A DNA stretch of 35,010 nt from the IMG/VR virus record IMGVR_UViG_3300049732_000162, positions 1 to 35,010 of that record; one strand, written 5' to 3'. Shown piece by piece: positions 1,468-31,616 of this stretch (positions within the stretch are counted from its first letter, which is position 1; each line of letters starts with the position of its first letter). The notes under the pieces were generated by a model, which saw only the letters and a list, made by a program, of their open reading frames with translations, ran no database searches and was not told the DNA's origin. The translations under genes and the position numbers were made by a program. The DNA is from a virus.

Positions 1468-1597
1468 ATACCTTGCCTTGCCCCACCGAACCGGGCCGCG
1501 CCGCGCCAAGCCCCACCCAACCAGGCCGAACCAAACGACGCCTAACCGCCCCAATCCAAACCACGGCCCGCCCCACCATACGGAGCCACACGGTGCC
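1468..1597 (-). repeat. Pentanucleotide-period array 1 (GGYNN units)
   Basis: Twenty-six consecutive 5-base units with no insertion or deletion. On the minus (coding) strand nearly every unit is GG(C/T)NN; on the plus strand NN(G/A)CC. The two N positions vary freely, so this is a periodic pattern rather than copies of one word. It begins five bases after the stop codon of the HNH gene (TAA, 1603-1601) and runs to 1468. A second array in the same orientation (2492-2601) precedes the partner gene, so the two arrays bracket the gene pair. Confidence 0.9.
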
Positions 1598-1600
1598 GCG

Positions 1601-1921
1601 TTATCCCTCCCAAACCAACTCGCGCCAGTTCGGAGGAATTACTCCATCACGCAACGCCGACGCAATCATGCCCGCGTGCCGATGATCGGCACGCAGAACA
1701 TGACAACGACGGCACAGCGTGCGAAGATTCTTAAACTTGTTGGTTGCCAACTTACCGCTGTGGATATGATCGATCTCCGCGGCTTCCAACGTCACCGGAT
1801 TCTTGCAATGAACACAACGCCGCTTATCGCGTTTCCAGATCGCAGGTCTAAGATTCGCGAACCATACCTCACGAGGCGGACGTTTCTTCGGCACCGTTTT
1901 GCTCTGCGAACCCGACAACAT
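1601..1921 (-). CDS. HNH endonuclease
   Basis: The product is 106 residues from the ATG at 1921; a TTG at 1939 is an alternative. It is a compact HNH nuclease: Cys36-x2-Cys39, then Asp51-His52 (first metal/catalytic His), Asn65 and Cys70-x2-Cys73-His74, which matches the zinc-stapled beta-beta-alpha-metal fold. The basic N-terminus (KKRPPR) would bind nucleic acid. The gene overlaps the end of the RAMP-like gene by 53 bases in another frame, so the two are co-transcribed and translationally linked. Its stop is immediately followed by repeat array 1. HNH proteins in phages can be homing, packaging or defence nucleases; here its fixed place in a repeat-bounded pair suggests it works with its neighbour. 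Confidence 0.88.
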   Translation of the reverse strand: MLSGSQSKTVPKKRPPREVWFANLRPAIWKRDKRRCVHCKNPVTLEAAEIDHIHSGKLATNKFKNLRTLCRRCHVLRADHRHAGMIASALRDGVIPPNWRELVWEG

Positions 1922-2486
1922 CAAACCGCCCGTAACCAATCGAGCGCCCGTTACTCAATCCGACCAATCGGCCCGCGTCCTCGACTACCGCCCTCATTTG
2001 ATCGCGTGACACAAGCGTCTTGTCCCACATGATCGAAAAGGAACACTTCCAGCCCGGCGAAACCGCCAGACGATAGCGGACGTTACGCGCTTTCGTCGAT
2101 GGATTTCTGACGCCGCGGACATCGATATAAACGTCCTGCGTTGAATCCGTCGTCGGTGCGCTTCCATGATTCGGCAGAAAGCGATTCAACAGAACGCGAT
2201 CCTCTTGAACCAGCAATGTCGCGGCAACGAGCGGCTGAATGCTACCGCGCCCTTTCTTGGTATGCCTTGCGGCGTCACGCAGCATCGAAAAGAAGTACGT
2301 GCCCGGAATATATAGTTGCCCGTCCGGCATGACCGAACAGGTTCTCTTCCATTCCTCGGGATCGTTCCCGGCTACGCCCGTGCGCTCTTGTTTTTCGAGC
2401 GGCAACGCGTCCGGCCCAAACTGATGCTGCCATAAAGGACGAGTCCCTATGATTTCAACTCTTGCTGTAACGATATTCTTTCTCAT
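1869..2486 (-). CDS. RAMP/Cas7-like protein (RRM-fold, Gly-rich loop), function unknown
   Basis: The product is 205 residues. The N-terminus is a beta strand ending in IIGTRPL (12-18). The C-terminal part has the order strand (148-156), helix (161-176), glycine-rich loop GLSNGRSIGYGRF (176-188) and strand (189-193). This strand-helix-Gly-loop-strand arrangement is the hallmark of RAMP proteins (Cas5/6/7, Csm3, Cmr4), where the loop contacts RNA. No CRISPR array or other cas gene is nearby. I have an impression that close relatives with conserved RTGVAGNDPEEW occur in other phages, unverified. The ATG at 2486 is preceded by GGAGA, which is itself the last in-register unit of repeat array 2. 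The HNH gene follows with overlap. Confidence 0.72.
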   Translation of the reverse strand: MRKNIVTARVEIIGTRPLWQHQFGPDALPLEKQERTGVAGNDPEEWKRTCSVMPDGQLYIPGTYFFSMLRDAARHTKKGRGSIQPLVAATLLVQEDRVLLNRFLPNHGSAPTTDSTQDVYIDVRGVRNPSTKARNVRYRLAVSPGWKCSFSIMWDKTLVSRDQMRAVVEDAGRLVGLSNGRSIGYGRFDVVGFAEQNGAEETSAS

Positions 2487-2491
2487 CTAAG

Positions 2492-2601
2492 TCTCCAAGC
2501 CTTGCGATGCCTTGCCCAGCCATACCCCGCCTAGCCGAGCCAAGCCGTACCCAACCGCGCCACGCCCGGCCGGACAAATCCATGCCGCGCCAGACCGCGC
2601 C
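2492..2601 (-). repeat. Pentanucleotide-period array 2 (GGYNN units)
   Basis: Twenty-two consecutive 5-base units in perfect register; on the minus strand most read GG(C/T)NN. The last unit, GGAGA (2496-2492), is the ribosome-binding site of the RAMP-like gene starting at 2486. The array therefore forms the 5' leader of the RAMP-HNH mRNA, giving an RNA with a G-G doublet every five bases. Upstream, to 2694, lies an A+T-rich stretch that could hold the promoter, although I see no convincing -35/-10 pair. Confidence 0.9.
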
Positions 2602-2694: not shown

Positions 2695-3987
2695 TTAGAT
2701 ACTCAGTACTCGGGCGATTTTTGTAGGTTGTAACATCAAATAAGTCAAACCCCACGTCATTGCATCGGCCCTGTTCGGACTCTTGCTCATGCCCGGCACA
2801 TAGTTAGTTAGCTCATCCTCCAACTGTGGGAAGCCTCCAACCATATGCACTTTGCCTTGCTCGAATAACGCGGCGACGGGCTCCATTCGCGCCACTTTTC
2901 CACGGCTCGCCGTCACCTTCGTATAGCTGATATTTTTGCGCTGCGTGTACAGCAGGCTCGAAATCAGATCGCCGCCCTGGTTCGCTTCGCCGATGATCCG
3001 ATCGGCCGAGAATTCGTCATAGGCGAGCACGGCACGTGTGATCCACTCATCGGGCGACGAACGTCCCGACCTGTCGGACAATACATAGCCGTGCCCGTCC
3101 ACGCCCAAGCCGGTCACGACAATACCGCATTCGTCCGACTCCGGGCCACTCGTCACCGCGGGGTCTATGGCCACCGCAATGCGGACCAATTCCGGTGCCG
3201 CCTTGACGCGTAATTCCTCGATCCGCGCCCGCGTCCACAGCGCGCCCTCAGCTTCCTCGAGCAGTTCGCCTTCAAGCTCCTGCCGCCCGATGCGCGTGCC
3301 GCCGTAGATGCGCTGGTAGTCGGCGAGCGCCGACTGCGCGAGATTCGCCCGGTTATCGAATGTGGATCCGCGCGTCACCAGCGTGCCCGGATCGGCGATC
3401 AGATCGCGCAGGAACTTCGACGGCCGCGGCGTCGTGGTCGCGATGATCCGCGGATTCGCGCCGAGCCGCAGGCCCATCTTGAGGTTGACCCAGAGCGCCT
3501 CGGGATCGGGATACACCGCCAATTCATCGAGCGCCGCAAACGAATGCTGCGGTCCGCGCAGCCGCTCCGGTTCTTCCGCGGAATAGAGCGTCGCCATCGC
3601 GCCGTTGCGGAATTGCACGCGGCGCTTCGACGGCATGTACTCGGGCCGCTCTTCTTTCGGAAAGATGCTGAGCAGACCCGATTCGCCCTGAATCATGACA
3701 TCGCGGCAATCGGCGGAAGTGGGCGCGATGATCGCGATACGGGCATTCGGATCGCTCATCGCGACCTCGCGCACCGCCTCGGCCGATGAGCGCGTCTTTC
3801 CCCAACCGCGCCCGCTGAGCACGAGCCATACGCGCCAGTCACCATCGGGCATGACCTGTTCCCGCCGCGCCCAGAAGCGCCAGTCATACAGCAGTTGCTC
3901 GGCGTCCGCTTCGTCGAGCGCGAGCGCGCAGGCGCGGACTTCGGCGGGCGTGAGGTTGCGGGTTGCGAAGGATTCAGCGGTGAGCAT
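2695..3987 (-). CDS. terL: Terminase large subunit
   Basis: The product is 430 residues and powers DNA packaging into the prohead. Walker A is SGRGWGKT at 58-65; the Walker B/catalytic pair is LDE at 153-155; the coupling motif IIATTTPRPS follows near 190. The nuclease half has the RNase H-like acidic residues in VAIDPA (about 274), GEANQGG (about 331) and NRADAMTWG near the C-terminus. Length and motifs fit a complete enzyme. The ATG at 3987 directly follows the stop of the gene at 3988-4209 (TGAATG), and both codons are formed by the GCTGANN repeat, so the first residues MLTAES come from repeat sequence. The same MLTAES opens the unrelated gene at 30753-31052. No classical small subunit is next to it. 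Confidence 0.96.
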   Translation of the reverse strand: MLTAESFATRNLTPAEVRACALALDEADAEQLLYDWRFWARREQVMPDGDWRVWLVLSGRGWGKTRSSAEAVREVAMSDPNARIAIIAPTSADCRDVMIQGESGLLSIFPKEERPEYMPSKRRVQFRNGAMATLYSAEEPERLRGPQHSFAALDELAVYPDPEALWVNLKMGLRLGANPRIIATTTPRPSKFLRDLIADPGTLVTRGSTFDNRANLAQSALADYQRIYGGTRIGRQELEGELLEEAEGALWTRARIEELRVKAAPELVRIAVAIDPAVTSGPESDECGIVVTGLGVDGHGYVLSDRSGRSSPDEWITRAVLAYDEFSADRIIGEANQGGDLISSLLYTQRKNISYTKVTASRGKVARMEPVAALFEQGKVHMVGGFPQLEDELTNYVPGMSKSPNRADAMTWGLTYLMLQPTKIARVLSI

Positions 3988-6527: not shown

Positions 6528-7753
6528 CGCGCGATCCAGCGGCGCACACTTGCTTCGCCCGGCGGCCATTGTGGCGGATGCCGCGGTTGCTCGAGCAGCC
6601 AGCGCAAAAACGGCGCATCGTTCGTAATTCCGCCCTCAGCGTACAACTCGGCTAATCGCTCAGCGGAACACGGCGGATCAGGCGCACTCGCCGGCGCAGA
6701 TGAACCGCTTGCGGACATGCGCCGCGGTACCGAAACCGGCGGCGATTCGGCTGATTGCTGATCGCTGACCGCTGACCGCTCGATCGGCGCAAGCGGTTGA
6801 ACGATTCGCTTTTCCGGCGGATACGATTCGAGGACGGGGCCGCCCCTCCTGATGTAATCGGCGGCGATGTATCGCCAGCACGCGTCCTGCGATCGGAACA
6901 GGCGCGGCTTGTGATGCTGGTCGACATCGAGCAGGAATGCGCGGATATTCCAGCGGCGCACCAGCATCAAACTCAACAGCCACAGCGTGGTCTGAAACGA
7001 GACGGGGACGCGGAACCAGTTATCGAGAGTTTGCCGCAAATCCTGAACGCGCGAAAGAATCGGTGTTTTTACTGGGCTTTCGGCGGTATCGACGGAATAT
7101 ACGTTATCAACCAATTGCGGCTTGTTGGGCGGGTCTTGCTTCGTTTCACGGATCGGCTCGGGTTCCGTGTCAGTCCGCGGTTTTTGCTCGTCCACAACGG
7201 AAGAAGACTGATATACACCAATATCAACTACAGAAGACTCATCTGGCGGTGACTCTTTTGTCACCGTATCGGTAACGGAACTCTCGGCTGCACAACGATT
7301 TCGAAGATGCTCGTCAAAGAACGGATTGTCCCAGTTGATGCTGATTTCGTTTGTCGTACAACTCCCGTTTTCACGCAATCGCGGACTGACTGTGATCAGG
7401 TAGCGCTCGCGCAAATACTTCGTGTAACGCTTGATCGACCGCTCGCATCTGTGAGCCTTCGCAGCAAGATGCTCGACCGAAAGCGTACAAGAGCCATAAC
7501 CGTGCGCCAGCTCCGCCAGGCGGGCGAGATATGCGCCGATCTTCGCCGGGATCAAACGGCCATCGGGCAGCGGCGTGTCATCAAGAAACCGGCGCAAACC
7601 GATCAGGGGATTTAACGGAGCAGCGGCTAATTCCGGCGGCGGCCCGTAGCGGCGTTGATGACGCCGGCTGCGATGAAAATGCGTGGAAAAACTAGCTTGA
7701 CGCGCGCTCTGCTGTGATATTCTGTTGTTGTCTCTCGTGTTGGTTTTTGGCAC
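6404..7753 (-). CDS. Replication initiator-like protein with winged-helix domain
   Basis: The product is 449 residues from GTG at 7753, preceded by AAGGA. Residues about 60-150 form a winged helix-turn-helix: LIPAKIGAYLARLA, then a recognition region LSVEHLAAKAHRCERSIKRYTKYLRE and a wing YLITVSPRLRENGS. This is the pattern of the N-terminal domain of phage replication protein O and of plasmid initiators (helix_turn_helix in front of a linker). The rest is low-complexity, Ser/Pro-rich, with a helical patch (FRVPVSFQTTLWLLSLMLVRRW) and a copy of the GCTGANN repeat encoding SAVSDQQSAES. No helicase or polymerase motif is seen, so it would recruit host enzymes. The Ser-rich tail overlaps the gene at 6201-6527 antisense. 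Confidence 0.7.
   Translation of the reverse strand: MPKTNTRDNNRISQQSARQASFSTHFHRSRRHQRRYGPPPELAAAPLNPLIGLRRFLDDTPLPDGRLIPAKIGAYLARLAELAHGYGSCTLSVEHLAAKAHRCERSIKRYTKYLRERYLITVSPRLRENGSCTTNEISINWDNPFFDEHLRNRCAAESSVTDTVTKESPPDESSVVDIGVYQSSSVVDEQKPRTDTEPEPIRETKQDPPNKPQLVDNVYSVDTAESPVKTPILSRVQDLRQTLDNWFRVPVSFQTTLWLLSLMLVRRWNIRAFLLDVDQHHKPRLFRSQDACWRYIAADYIRRGGPVLESYPPEKRIVQPLAPIERSAVSDQQSAESPPVSVPRRMSASGSSAPASAPDPPCSAERLAELYAEGGITNDAPFLRWLLEQPRHPPQWPPGEASVRRWIARYLATIDRNRSSASSDAESSNRASSDASVGGAGGSPGEPAD
6750..6780. repeat. GCTGANN heptamer repeat inside the Rep-like gene
   Basis: Four tandem units, GCTGATT, GCTGATC, GCTGACC and GCTGACC, and part of a fifth, in frame with the Rep-like gene, encoding ERSAVSDQQSAES on the minus strand. 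It is the only cluster of this family that is not at a gene end. Confidence 0.75.
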
Positions 7754-9285: not shown

Positions 9286-9347
9286 ACAGCGGTCAGCGGT
9301 CAGCAAGTCAGCAAGGCGGGCTGAAAGCTGATCGCTGAAAGCTGAAT
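9286..9347. repeat. Inverted arrays of the heptamer repeat in the 9354 leader
   Basis: TCAGCNN units (9286 to about 9312) are followed by four GCTGANN units in register (9320-9347: GCTGAAA, GCTGATC, GCTGAAA, GCTGAAT). The two halves are complementary and can fold into a long hairpin in the mRNA just before the ATG at 9354. Confidence 0.75.
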
Positions 9348-9353
9348 GGTTCA

Positions 9354-9902
9354 ATGGAACAGCAAGCCCTGATACCGGATATCCTGGTCGAGCGCGAAGA
9401 GCGCCCGAAGCCCAACGGCGGCAACGGTCGCCCGCCTGGCGCGACGAATCTTCGCCGCCGGGCGCTCGAGCGGGCCGCGCAATCAGAAGCCCTGCCGATC
9501 ATTCTGAAGCTGATCGATCTCGCGAAGCAAGGCGATACGCTCGCCGCCCGGATCATCCTCGACCGCATCTGGCCCCGACCGAAGACCGCGCCCATTACCG
9601 TCGACCTGCCCAAAACCGGAACACCTTCGGAAATCCGCGCCGCGATGCATGACCTGCTGCACAAGATCGCAACCGGCGAAATCCCGACCGATGACGGCCA
9701 ACTCCTGATGGCGACGATGCGCGATGTCCTGGACGCGCACCGGATACAAACCATCGACCTGACGCCATCGCTTGCCGCGCCCCAATCGGACGCCAGAACG
9801 GCGCTTGCCGAGCGGCTCGAGCGGATCATCGAAGCGAGAGAGCAATCCGCGGTCAGTGATCAGCAGTCAGCCGAAGACGCAAGGCTGAACGCTGAAAGCT
9901 GA
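9354..9902 (+). CDS. DUF5681/small-terminase-like protein
   Basis: The product is 182 residues. Residues about 20-85 (KPNGGNGRPPGATNLRR..., then ALPIILKLIDLAKQGDTLAARIILDRIWPRPK) follow the pattern of DUF5681 and related small-terminase-like proteins: a basic GRPxGxxN start, a helix pair with a GD-x-x-AA-x-x-x-LDR motif, and a P-rich end. This is one candidate for the small terminase subunit, although it lies on the opposite strand and over 5 kb from terL. The last 20 residues (SAVSDQQSAED...LNAES) are encoded by heptamer repeat units, and its TGA stop is formed by one, which suggests the gene's end has been altered by the repeat. Confidence 0.7.
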   Translation: MEQQALIPDILVEREERPKPNGGNGRPPGATNLRRRALERAAQSEALPIILKLIDLAKQGDTLAARIILDRIWPRPKTAPITVDLPKTGTPSEIRAAMHDLLHKIATGEIPTDDGQLLMATMRDVLDAHRIQTIDLTPSLAAPQSDARTALAERLERIIEAREQSAVSDQQSAEDARLNAES

Positions 9903-9907
9903 ACGCT
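9853..9907. repeat. GCTGANN/TCAGCNN heptamer repeats at the end of the 9354 gene
   Basis: Three TCAG(C/T)-type units (9853-9871) and three GCTGANN units (9884-9904) overlap the 3' end of the gene; the TGA stop (9900-9902) is part of a unit. Confidence 0.7.
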
Positions 9908-25991: not shown

Positions 25992-25996
25992 GAAGA

Positions 25997-26048
25997 GCTT
26001 TCAGCGGTCAGCAATCAGCTTTCAGCGGTCAGCAATCAGCTTTCAGCT
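25997..26048. repeat. TCAGCNN heptamer repeats before the head-tail adaptor gene
   Basis: About seven TCAGCNN-type units, on the minus strand GCTGANN, between the stop of the gene at 26043 and the start of the adaptor gene at 25991. The stop of the 26043 gene lies in a unit. Confidence 0.75.
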
Positions 26049-26216
26049 TTCGTCGCGTTCATCGTCTGCGTCGTCGTCACAGGCATGGAGGCATTCATCA
26101 ACTTCATCCCACCAAGTGTCTTCGCCATCGCAGTAACACGCCTGACCGCAATCGGGACAGTTATGCGCAGCAATAAGCTGACCGCTGACCGCTGACCGCT
26201 GATCGCTATCCCCCAT
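26043..26216 (-). CDS. Small zinc-ribbon, acidic phage protein
   Basis: The product is 57 residues from the ATG at 26216, inside the end of the connector gene (11-base overlap). The first ~16 residues (GDSDQRSAVSGQ) are encoded by heptamer repeats. Then a compact zinc motif follows: CPDCGQACYCDGEDTWWDE, then ECLHAC, and an Asp/Glu-rich tail. Small phage proteins with CPxCxxxCYCDGED are, from memory, widespread and of unknown role. Confidence 0.7.
   Translation of the reverse strand: MGDSDQRSAVSGQLIAAHNCPDCGQACYCDGEDTWWDEVDECLHACDDDADDERDES
26177..26210. repeat. GCTGANN heptamer array at the start of the 26043 gene
   Basis: GCTGACC three times and GCTGATC once, in exact 7-base register, then a broken unit. 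They are read in frame as the N-terminus of the gene at 26043-26216 and lie next to the end of the connector gene. Confidence 0.75.
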
Positions 26217-26955: not shown

Positions 26956-27022
26956 TGACCACATCCGTTGGACGCCCCTCTTATCCCCAGGGGATAAGTC
27001 GGCATCCTGGACACGTGTGGTC
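26956..27022. repeat. Full dyad element, copy 3
   Basis: A 67-bp element: TGACCACA at the left, TGTGGTC at the right (inverted ends), a perfect 19-bp palindrome at 26980-26998 (CTTATCCCCAGGGGATAAG). Its right end overlaps the capsid stop codon (TAG, 27024-27022). It is the only full copy in the structural operon, between capsid and connector genes. Confidence 0.82.
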
Positions 27023-28203
27023 TACGCCGGCGTTGCGCCGTTCGCGAATGCCGCCGGCTGGAAGATCAGCAGTACCAGTCTCTCCTCAACCCTGATCGTC
27101 AGCATGTTTTTCTCGAAATCATCGACGTTCTGCTCCGCGATTTGTACATTCACTTCCTCGCGGTCGAGAATCAGCGAATTGCCCTGGAACGCGCCGACCA
27201 GGAACGTGCCGGCCGCCTGGTGAGTCGACATCACCATTCTGACGCCCCAAATCCGCGGCGCAGTCGTATAGTCGATCGGGTTGGCAAACAGGTAGTTGCC
27301 CTGCGAATTCTTCGCCAGCGCGACCTTGGCCCAGTCGGCGGGATTCAGCACCAGACCATCGGCCATGTAGCCCGCCGATGCCAGCGTAAAGATCACCGTC
27401 CCGATCGAATCCATGAGCGTCGCGGGCAGCGCCGGCGCGGCGACATCGGTCGCGACAGGATTGAAGCCCTTGAGCTGCGGACTCGTGCCGGTGCCGTTCA
27501 GCAATTGGTTGTCTTCCGCCTTTTTCACGCCATAGATCCCGTTGCTTTCGATCTGAGACGCGACCGCCGGCAAATCGTCGTACATCTGCCGCGAGATCTT
27601 GAAAATGTGTGCGATCGTCTCGACGGGCAGCGTTCGCGGATTGAACACTTTATCGGATTTGGGCTTGGCTGCGCCCTCGGCTACCGGCGCGGCGGAGTTC
27701 GTGAAGCTCGTCTCCTCGACAAACTGCACGGCGCCCGACGTCGTGCGGCCTTGCGGCACAAGAGATCGCACGCCGAGCGGCAGGCGCGCAGCCGAGCCGA
27801 CGCCGACAAACTCCGTTATGGCGCGCGAAATGCCCACCATATCTTTCTGCTCGAGCCCGCCGCGGAGCGTCGCAGTGTACTGGCCGTGGCCGCCCTGCTT
27901 CACGAAGGCGAGGAAGCCGGGATCTTCGATGAACCGCTGGCCGATCGATTTCGGCGATTCCGGCACGGCCGGCGCCTGGCGCTGCTTTTCCTCGATCGCA
28001 TCGAGCCGCGCCGTTGCGGCTTCGTGCTTCTTCTGGAAATCCGCCATGCCCTCATCGAGCTTTCCGAGCTTGGTGAGGATTTCGCCCTGCGGCTTGCCTT
28101 GCTTGATCGCTTCGGCAAGCTGCGCGTAGAGCGGTTTGTATTCCGTCAGGCCTTTTTTCAATTCGTCGATTTCGGCCGGAGTCAACGTTCCATTATCAGG
28201 CAT
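27022..28203 (-). CDS. HK97-family major capsid protein
   Basis: The product is 393 residues. Residues 1-90 are a charged coiled coil (the delta scaffold domain: QKKHEAATARLDAIEEKQ), which the protease removes. The mature part starts near KSIGQRF and has the family traits: GGHGQYTATLRGG, the central FVEETSFTNSAAPVAEGA, IFKISRQMYDDLPAVASQI, then LLNGTGTSPQLKGF and ILDREEVNVQIAEQNVDDFEKNM. The ATG at 28203 follows AAAGGAA. Self-scaffolding plus a neighbouring protease give the HK97-type maturation path. Confidence 0.96.
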   Translation of the reverse strand: MPDNGTLTPAEIDELKKGLTEYKPLYAQLAEAIKQGKPQGEILTKLGKLDEGMADFQKKHEAATARLDAIEEKQRQAPAVPESPKSIGQRFIEDPGFLAFVKQGGHGQYTATLRGGLEQKDMVGISRAITEFVGVGSAARLPLGVRSLVPQGRTTSGAVQFVEETSFTNSAAPVAEGAAKPKSDKVFNPRTLPVETIAHIFKISRQMYDDLPAVASQIESNGIYGVKKAEDNQLLNGTGTSPQLKGFNPVATDVAAPALPATLMDSIGTVIFTLASAGYMADGLVLNPADWAKVALAKNSQGNYLFANPIDYTTAPRIWGVRMVMSTHQAAGTFLVGAFQGNSLILDREEVNVQIAEQNVDDFEKNMLTIRVEERLVLLIFQPAAFANGATPA

Positions 28204-31353: not shown

Positions 31354-31616
31354 GCGTCCACCGGGAGGATCGTTATGGTCGCTTTGACTCTCCCGCTCCC
31401 ATCGCAAGTCGAGCAAGGCTTCCCACGCGCGTTCTCGCCCCATTCGCAACGTCGCCGCGAACGTCGCCGCGAGATTCCGAAGGATAGCGCTCCACAGCCG
31501 GATTCTCTGGCATTCTTGCGATACCACGCGCACCAGCCGCATAATTCATGGCATTCCGGGCAATCCAGTGATACGATCCGCTCGTTTAGCTGACCGCTGA
31601 TCGCTGACAGCTTCAT
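31350..31616 (-). CDS. Zinc-finger protein with DnaJ-like CxxCxGxG motif
   Basis: The product is 88 residues from the ATG at 31616, whose first residues (KLSAISGQ) are encoded by heptamer repeats. It has CPECHELCGWC (about 19-29) and, near the end, GKPCSTCDGSGRV (about 65-77), a DnaJ-type CxxCxGxG repeat. The two pairs could bind one or two zinc ions. Chaperone or assembly function is possible. It lies directly after the portal gene with an ATGA-type overlap. Confidence 0.7.
   Translation of the reverse strand: MKLSAISGQLNERIVSLDCPECHELCGWCAWYRKNARESGCGALSFGISRRRSRRRCEWGENARGKPCSTCDGSGRVKATITILPVDA
31588..31612. repeat. GCTGANN heptamer units at the portal/31350 gene junction
   Basis: Three units of GCTGANN (GCTGACC, GCTGATC, GCTGACA) at 31589-31609. 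They code for the N-terminus of the gene at 31350-31616 and lie next to the portal stop codon. Confidence 0.7.

Follow-up and report, generated by a model that had tools for sequence, protein, structure and literature searches.

Introduction

The closest described system is VIPR (Viral Interference Programmable Repeat), presented in a preprint of April-June 2026 (PMC13142463). According to that text, VIPR combines a phage-borne RAMP protein with vrRNAs made of tandem GGY/NN units, reads DNA in an NN-skip-NN-skip fashion and carries an accessory vap gene. In type II, Vipr and vrRNA alone repress, types III-V carry enzymes, and the nuclease types III and V are located in host defence islands; the preprint also associates nuclease VIPR types with target destruction. 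It describes the vrRNA of the SUSP1 clade as having 9-16 units and an invariant structured 3' tail, and it also reports hammerhead-separated and other array architectures (PMC13142463).

Here, we report a cassette in the order array 2, vipr, HNH, array 1 in an HK97-type tailed phage. It very probably represents a VIPR of an HNH-nuclease kind, acting by the mechanism proposed below. The window, which is the whole stretch of 35,010 nucleotides analysed here (positions 1 to 35,010 of IMG/VR virus record IMGVR_UViG_3300049732_000162), holds terminase, portal, prohead protease, HK97-type capsid and tape-measure genes. The features on which the analysis rests are the following.

1468..1597, minus strand: array 1, 26 GGYNN units (log-odds scan 75.5), starting 3 nt past the HNH stop
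1601..1939, minus strand: HNH endonuclease gene, a vap-like accessory overlapping vipr (PF01844, E 4.6e-7)
1869..2486, minus strand: vipr, encoding a RAMP/Cas7-fold protein of 205 aa with G-loop at 176-188 (PDB 36pp, Foldseek, phrog_4652)
2492..2496, minus strand: GGAGA, the last unit of array 2 and the vipr ribosome-binding site (vipr ATG at 2486)
2492..2601, minus strand: array 2, 22 GGYNN units (log-odds 68.1), a vrRNA-like guide RNA lying in the 5' leader of vipr
2695..3987, minus strand: terminase large subunit (PF03237, E 1.8e-18), directly upstream of the cassette
27022..28203, minus strand: gene for the major capsid protein of the phage itself, HK97-type (PF05065, E 8e-41)
27614-27690: site in the own capsid gene homologous to the array 1 target (APVAEGAAKPKSDKVFNPRTLPVETI), 31/52 NN positions matching

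With VIPR type II of Escherichia phage SUSP1 (PDB 36pp) this locus shares the Vipr family, a phage-encoded setting, the 1-nt skip code and GGY/NN arrays on both sides of a two-gene operon. It differs in having an HNH accessory instead of vap1, in the low sequence similarity of its Vipr, and in its arrays of 22 and 26 units as against 9-16, with no structured tail found. Since related loci carry arrays of up to 40 units and the preprint describes other architectures, the mismatch in unit number and tail is a difference at the level of type and not a criterion for the family. A nuclease-type accessory is shared with the nuclease types among III-V, as are the hammerheads between arrays of one relative; according to the preprint, types III and V sit in host defence islands, whereas the present cassette is phage-borne and lies beside a terminase gene. 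The RRM/RAMP fold and the glycine-rich loop are held in common with Csm3/Cas7 of Class 1 CRISPR-Cas, from which the locus is set apart by a 5-nt rather than 6-nt period, by gapped rather than nearly continuous pairing, and by the lack of visible CRISPR repeats or cas operon neighbours. The preliminary description had proposed a new system, a claim overtaken by the 2026 preprint (PMC13142463): VIPR is already known, and what is new is the phage HNH-type cassette, the long guides, the ribosome-binding site inside array 2 and a capsid target that can be decoded.

Results

Vipr and its HNH partner

The 1869-2486 protein is, judged by its sequence and predicted structure, a Vipr with an RRM/RAMP fold and a G-loop. 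Its sole sequence match in the PDB was SUSP1 Vipr 36pp (phmmer, E 1.5e-4); a profile built from 12 sequences matched 36pp at E 2.2e-8, and a profile of the same family also matched the Vipr taken from the SUSP1 phage genome. Pfam gave a sub-threshold RAMP match only, and among PHROGs the protein falls in the unnamed family phrog_4652. An AlphaFold model (pLDDT 77.8) had Csm3/Cas7 subunits as its top Foldseek matches (E 6e-8), so that the RAMP/Cas7-like assignment, for which a structure search had been suggested as a test, was borne out by the fold. In the G-loop at 176-188 (GLSNGRSIGYGRF), residues G176, R181, G184, G186 and R187 were invariant among 12 aligned sequences.

The overlapping gene, whose HNH character had been noticed from the sequence, matches the HNH family and is a conserved companion of the RAMP gene, present in 61 of 77 related loci. 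The longest ORF opens with TTG at 1939, the ATG at 1921 being the more likely start; the protein is 112 aa long. D57, H58, N67, C76, H80 and H88 were invariant in 61/61 loci. A profile of the HNH protein did not match SUSP1 vap1, and a structure model from its single sequence was too poor in quality for use. The remaining neighbours of the cassette, besides terminase, are phage genes without an assigned function. Elsewhere in the window, heptamer repeats of the GCTGACC / AGCTTTC type occur at 9287-9346, 9884-9907, 25996-26051, 26177-26207 and 31589-31612.

The GGYNN arrays

Both arrays lie where the preliminary description had placed them, in register and without slip, and their log-odds scores far exceed the maximum of 20.0 obtained when the window was mononucleotide-shuffled 30 times. 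Tandem Repeats Finder reported neither of them because the GGYNN unit is degenerate. The variable pairs of array 2 run GC CT GC AT TT CC CG GT GC TG AC TT TC TA GG AT TG AA AT AA TT GA, and the last unit, GGAGA, stands 5 nt ahead of the vipr ATG, a normal Shine-Dalgarno spacing in keeping with its earlier recognition as the ribosome-binding site. Units 1-23 of array 1 can be read as a guide to an HK97-type major capsid gene, and units 24-26 (AA AA AT) look like the common 3' end of the arrays of relatives. Units with AA (GGCAAGG) are enriched at the 3' ends of these related arrays, and likewise in the window; such AA-rich ends may be a constant 3' cap rather than guide. A search for a structured 3' tail after array 1 gave nothing above shuffles, and array 2 continues into the start of vipr. 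An Rfam scan of the cassette returned no match, and promoter and terminator scans stayed at chance level.

Related loci

Relatives of vipr were collected from scans of IMG/VR and GTDB genomes, giving 77 distinct loci once duplicates were removed. Besides viral contigs, the genomes that carry them belong to Bryobacterales, Bacillales, Desulfosporosinus, Chloroflexales, Nostocales, Chlamydiae and other groups. A strong GGYNN array lies inside 3 kb of vipr in 56 of the 77, as expected if the linkage of gene and array proposed from the single locus is general. Array count and placement differ among loci, from one to many and often downstream only. As a positive control the detector was applied to SUSP1, where it recovered all four published arrays, one of them upstream of vipr and the other three downstream.

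Several loci show elements of their own between or beyond the arrays. The GGYNN arrays at L021 6866-7722 are interspersed with seven type II hammerhead ribozymes (RF02276), and cores like CTGATGAG...CGAAAC, similar to those hammerheads, are seen in L002, L028, L049 and L026. Minihelices resembling tRNA lie between arrays in L072 (6816-6856, 6957-6995 and 7112-7150) and L080 (about 3540-3583); they consist of an acceptor stem and a T arm with a 7-nt loop, without an anticodon arm, and neither ARAGORN nor Rfam made a call on them. A possible role is the recruitment of RNase P or Z to release vrRNA, as an alternative to the hammerheads of L021. L003, L006, L051, L052, L056 and L057 carry additional GGYNN arrays 1.3-4 kb upstream of vipr, on the other strand, so that some loci have remote guides. 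The L021 guide at 7470-7529 fits the beginning of the vipr gene in its own locus (L021 5964) with a score of 16, the shuffle maximum at that skip being 14, which could reflect autoregulation or chance. The Bryobacterales MAG that is the nearest host relative has a second vipr copy (L046), which is partial and broken by an in-frame TAA.

A code with one skipped base

The code was tested INDEPENDENTLY. If one base is skipped between NN pairs the reading has a period of 3, and the NN pairs of a gene-targeting guide then all share one codon register. The coherence of this register was scored over 122 arrays and compared with guides simulated from coding DNA. The observed score was 42. Simulated guides scored about 27-30 at skip 1, and at skips 0, 2 and 3 they fell to about -10 to -6; shuffling the letters within guides brought the score to about 2, and 0/300 shuffles reached the observed value. 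In the HNH-bearing subset the observed score was 31 (skip 1, 20; other skips, -9 to -7), and shuffles per position in that subset gave 25. The signal is thus partly one of position-specific composition, and the register test is therefore to be read as support and not proof. Together with the behaviour of array 1 on the capsid gene, where skip 1 alone beats shuffles, this clade-wide register supports the 1-nt skip code for this locus.

A probable capsid target of array 1

Read at skip 1, array 1 corresponds to an antisense stretch of the HK97-type major capsid gene (PEGAAKPQSDKTYAKKTPPIETV), with the skips on wobble positions; its reverse complement decodes to [IM][FL][FL]P[DE]GAA[KN]P[HQ][SR][DE][KN]TYA[KN][KN]TPP[IM][DE]TV. 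A 9-unit seed, picked before the decoded peptide was known, matched four viral contigs, all of them antisense, wobble-aligned and in major capsid genes with the motif EGAAKPQSD (Pfam confirmation on one of the four). When the decoded peptide was compared by tblastn with 50,697 phages, four matches were obtained at E up to 10; these had E about 7, came from two phages, covered the full 25 residues and were all annotated as major capsid or head. The sense reading gave a single weak unannotated match among phages, and the decoded peptides found nothing significant in PHROGs or Pfam.

In the phage's own capsid gene, the 31/52 site is the best place for the guide, and the best of 300 shuffled guides scored 28. 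With the last three units dropped, skip 1 gave 30/46 against a shuffle mean of 22.8, a value reached by 0/300, and skips 0, 2 and 3 gave background. One other site equalled the own-capsid match in a scan of the whole window. The best-fitting capsid genes reached 37/52 (L100/L101), a value that is not counted as independent since these genes were located with a pattern drawn from the array 1 guide; neither a perfect nor a near-perfect target was found. A local-score target search in 0.83 Mb of related loci stayed at background.

Other candidate sites of array 1 were set aside. An earlier seed matched an HNH gene (L082/83/85/86) over 11 units, with the skips off wobble positions, and had a short match in L084, both judged to be chance. 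One 3-mismatch match among 257 genomes of the order to which the Bryobacterales MAG, the nearest host relative, belongs had no extension.

A second guide points to the same region. The L060 guide (3074-3203, 26 units), from another phage, had its best match in an all-against-all comparison in this part of the capsid gene and decodes to [DE][CW][FL]T[KN]T[HQ][KN]AAPVA[DE][KN]AT[KN]PTSTY[DE][FL]V. On the capsid site it scored 30-32/46 at skip 1 (30/46 on the gene of the window), reached by 0/300 shuffles, and was not significant at skips 0, 2 and 3, where the lowest count was 32/300 at skip 0. When 122 guides were compared with a capsid panel, array 1 and L060 alone stood out (z 11.3 and 6.3; next 2.5), although the panel includes genes selected with the array 1 guide, so that for array 1 the fair comparison is that with the phage's own capsid gene. 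A further guide, from L049, seeds solely into a terminase-like gene on two contigs, in the sense strand. As guides lie on both strands, sense in L049 and antisense in array 1, the substrate would be DNA and not mRNA. The fit of array 1 to one gene over about 23 units suggests that an array of this length can function as a single long guide. Array 1 probably encodes a target in the capsid gene of related phages, which are probably competitors, in line with one option that had been raised for the locus, anti-phage competition.

Array 2

No convincing target of array 2 was found in the window or the other sets searched, and the 257 genomes of the Bryobacterales order likewise yielded none. Its seed search, in which about one match is estimated to be expected by chance, gave one 9-unit match, antisense and wobble-aligned, in a phage class II ribonucleotide reductase gene (L087; 29/44). 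An unselected comparison with five phage RNR genes reached 26/44, a weak result equalled by 8/500 shuffles. Seed matches in L096/L097 were rejected as not wobble-aligned.

Discussion

The interpretation of the cassette as an HNH-type VIPR draws on sequence-level results: Vipr belongs to its family by sequence and predicted fold, the arrays are present, HNH is a conserved partner, the NN pairs follow the skip-1 code and array 1 fits capsid genes. In the mechanism that we propose, both arrays would be transcribed and processed into vrRNAs, and Vipr subunits would line the vrRNA with one subunit per GGY/NN unit. The NN pairs would base-pair with double-stranded DNA, one base being skipped between pairs, and the ribonucleoprotein would come to rest on the gene for the major capsid protein in related phages, whether these enter the same host or already reside there. 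HNH would then cut or nick the target, or Vipr binding by itself would silence the gene. The carrier's own capsid gene would be spared through mismatches, since it differs at 21/52 positions and self-targeting should be avoided. The suggestion that the RAMP protein has a nucleic-acid partner with a 5-nt period is supported. The GGYNN arrays have the properties of guide RNAs, the target being specified by their variable NN pairs. The system is probably used between phages. That it amounts to a nuclease-armed weapon of phage against phage, with guides of up to 23-26 units (about 70-78 bp) directed at the most conserved capsid codons (terminase in a relative), and with one guide reaching many rivals through wobble skipping and choice of motif, is a tentative proposal to which we give almost an even chance.

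The alternative with an appreciable, if minor, probability is a VIPR acting by binding and transcriptional repression only, in which HNH is dispensable or has another job such as guide processing or cutting in guide acquisition. Type II Vipr and vrRNA do repress unaided according to the preprint (PMC13142463). However, HNH adjoins vipr in most related loci with its catalytic residues invariant, and the preprint ties nuclease types to target destruction (PMC13142463). It is improbable that the arrays regulate the phage's own genes, through vipr autoregulation or the timing of its own capsid, instead of attacking rivals. Array 2 is indeed the vipr leader, ribosome-binding site included, and array 1 resembles the own capsid gene; but that gene is mismatched as noted, other capsids fit equally well or better (to 37/52, selected), and array 2 lacks a convincing match inside the window. 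The idea that the arrays are mainly autoregulatory, which had been considered at the outset, is thus disfavoured, the NN pairs encoding targets.

The position of the arrays, which bracket both genes in one orientation, had also suggested the recombination ends of a mobile cassette, and ordinary simple repeats could be imagined in their place. This reading is largely refuted and very improbable: array number and position vary among loci, the NN letters are hypervariable and codon-coherent, and a conserved protein motif emerges when array 1 is decoded. A remnant of CRISPR-Cas, in the form of a stray Cas7 with an HNH protein, might be suspected from the Csm3/Cas7 fold and from a weak Csm4 match (E 0.028) in a PADLOC scan of the two cassette proteins alone. 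It is hardly to be expected when the nearest sequence relative is a Vipr and not a Cas7, and when GGYNN arrays are present and a tandem CRISPR array was not found in the window.

As an HNH-type VIPR, the cassette provides independent backing for the VIPR code, obtained from sequence alone in another branch of the system, and it offers a concrete natural target, probably the capsid gene, for a phage-borne and nuclease-linked VIPR. A small RAMP protein and a 112-aa HNH protein, with long gapped guides tolerant of synonymous changes, would make up a programmable DNA-targeting pair of natural origin. These features also bear on the origin of CRISPR effectors from viral systems.
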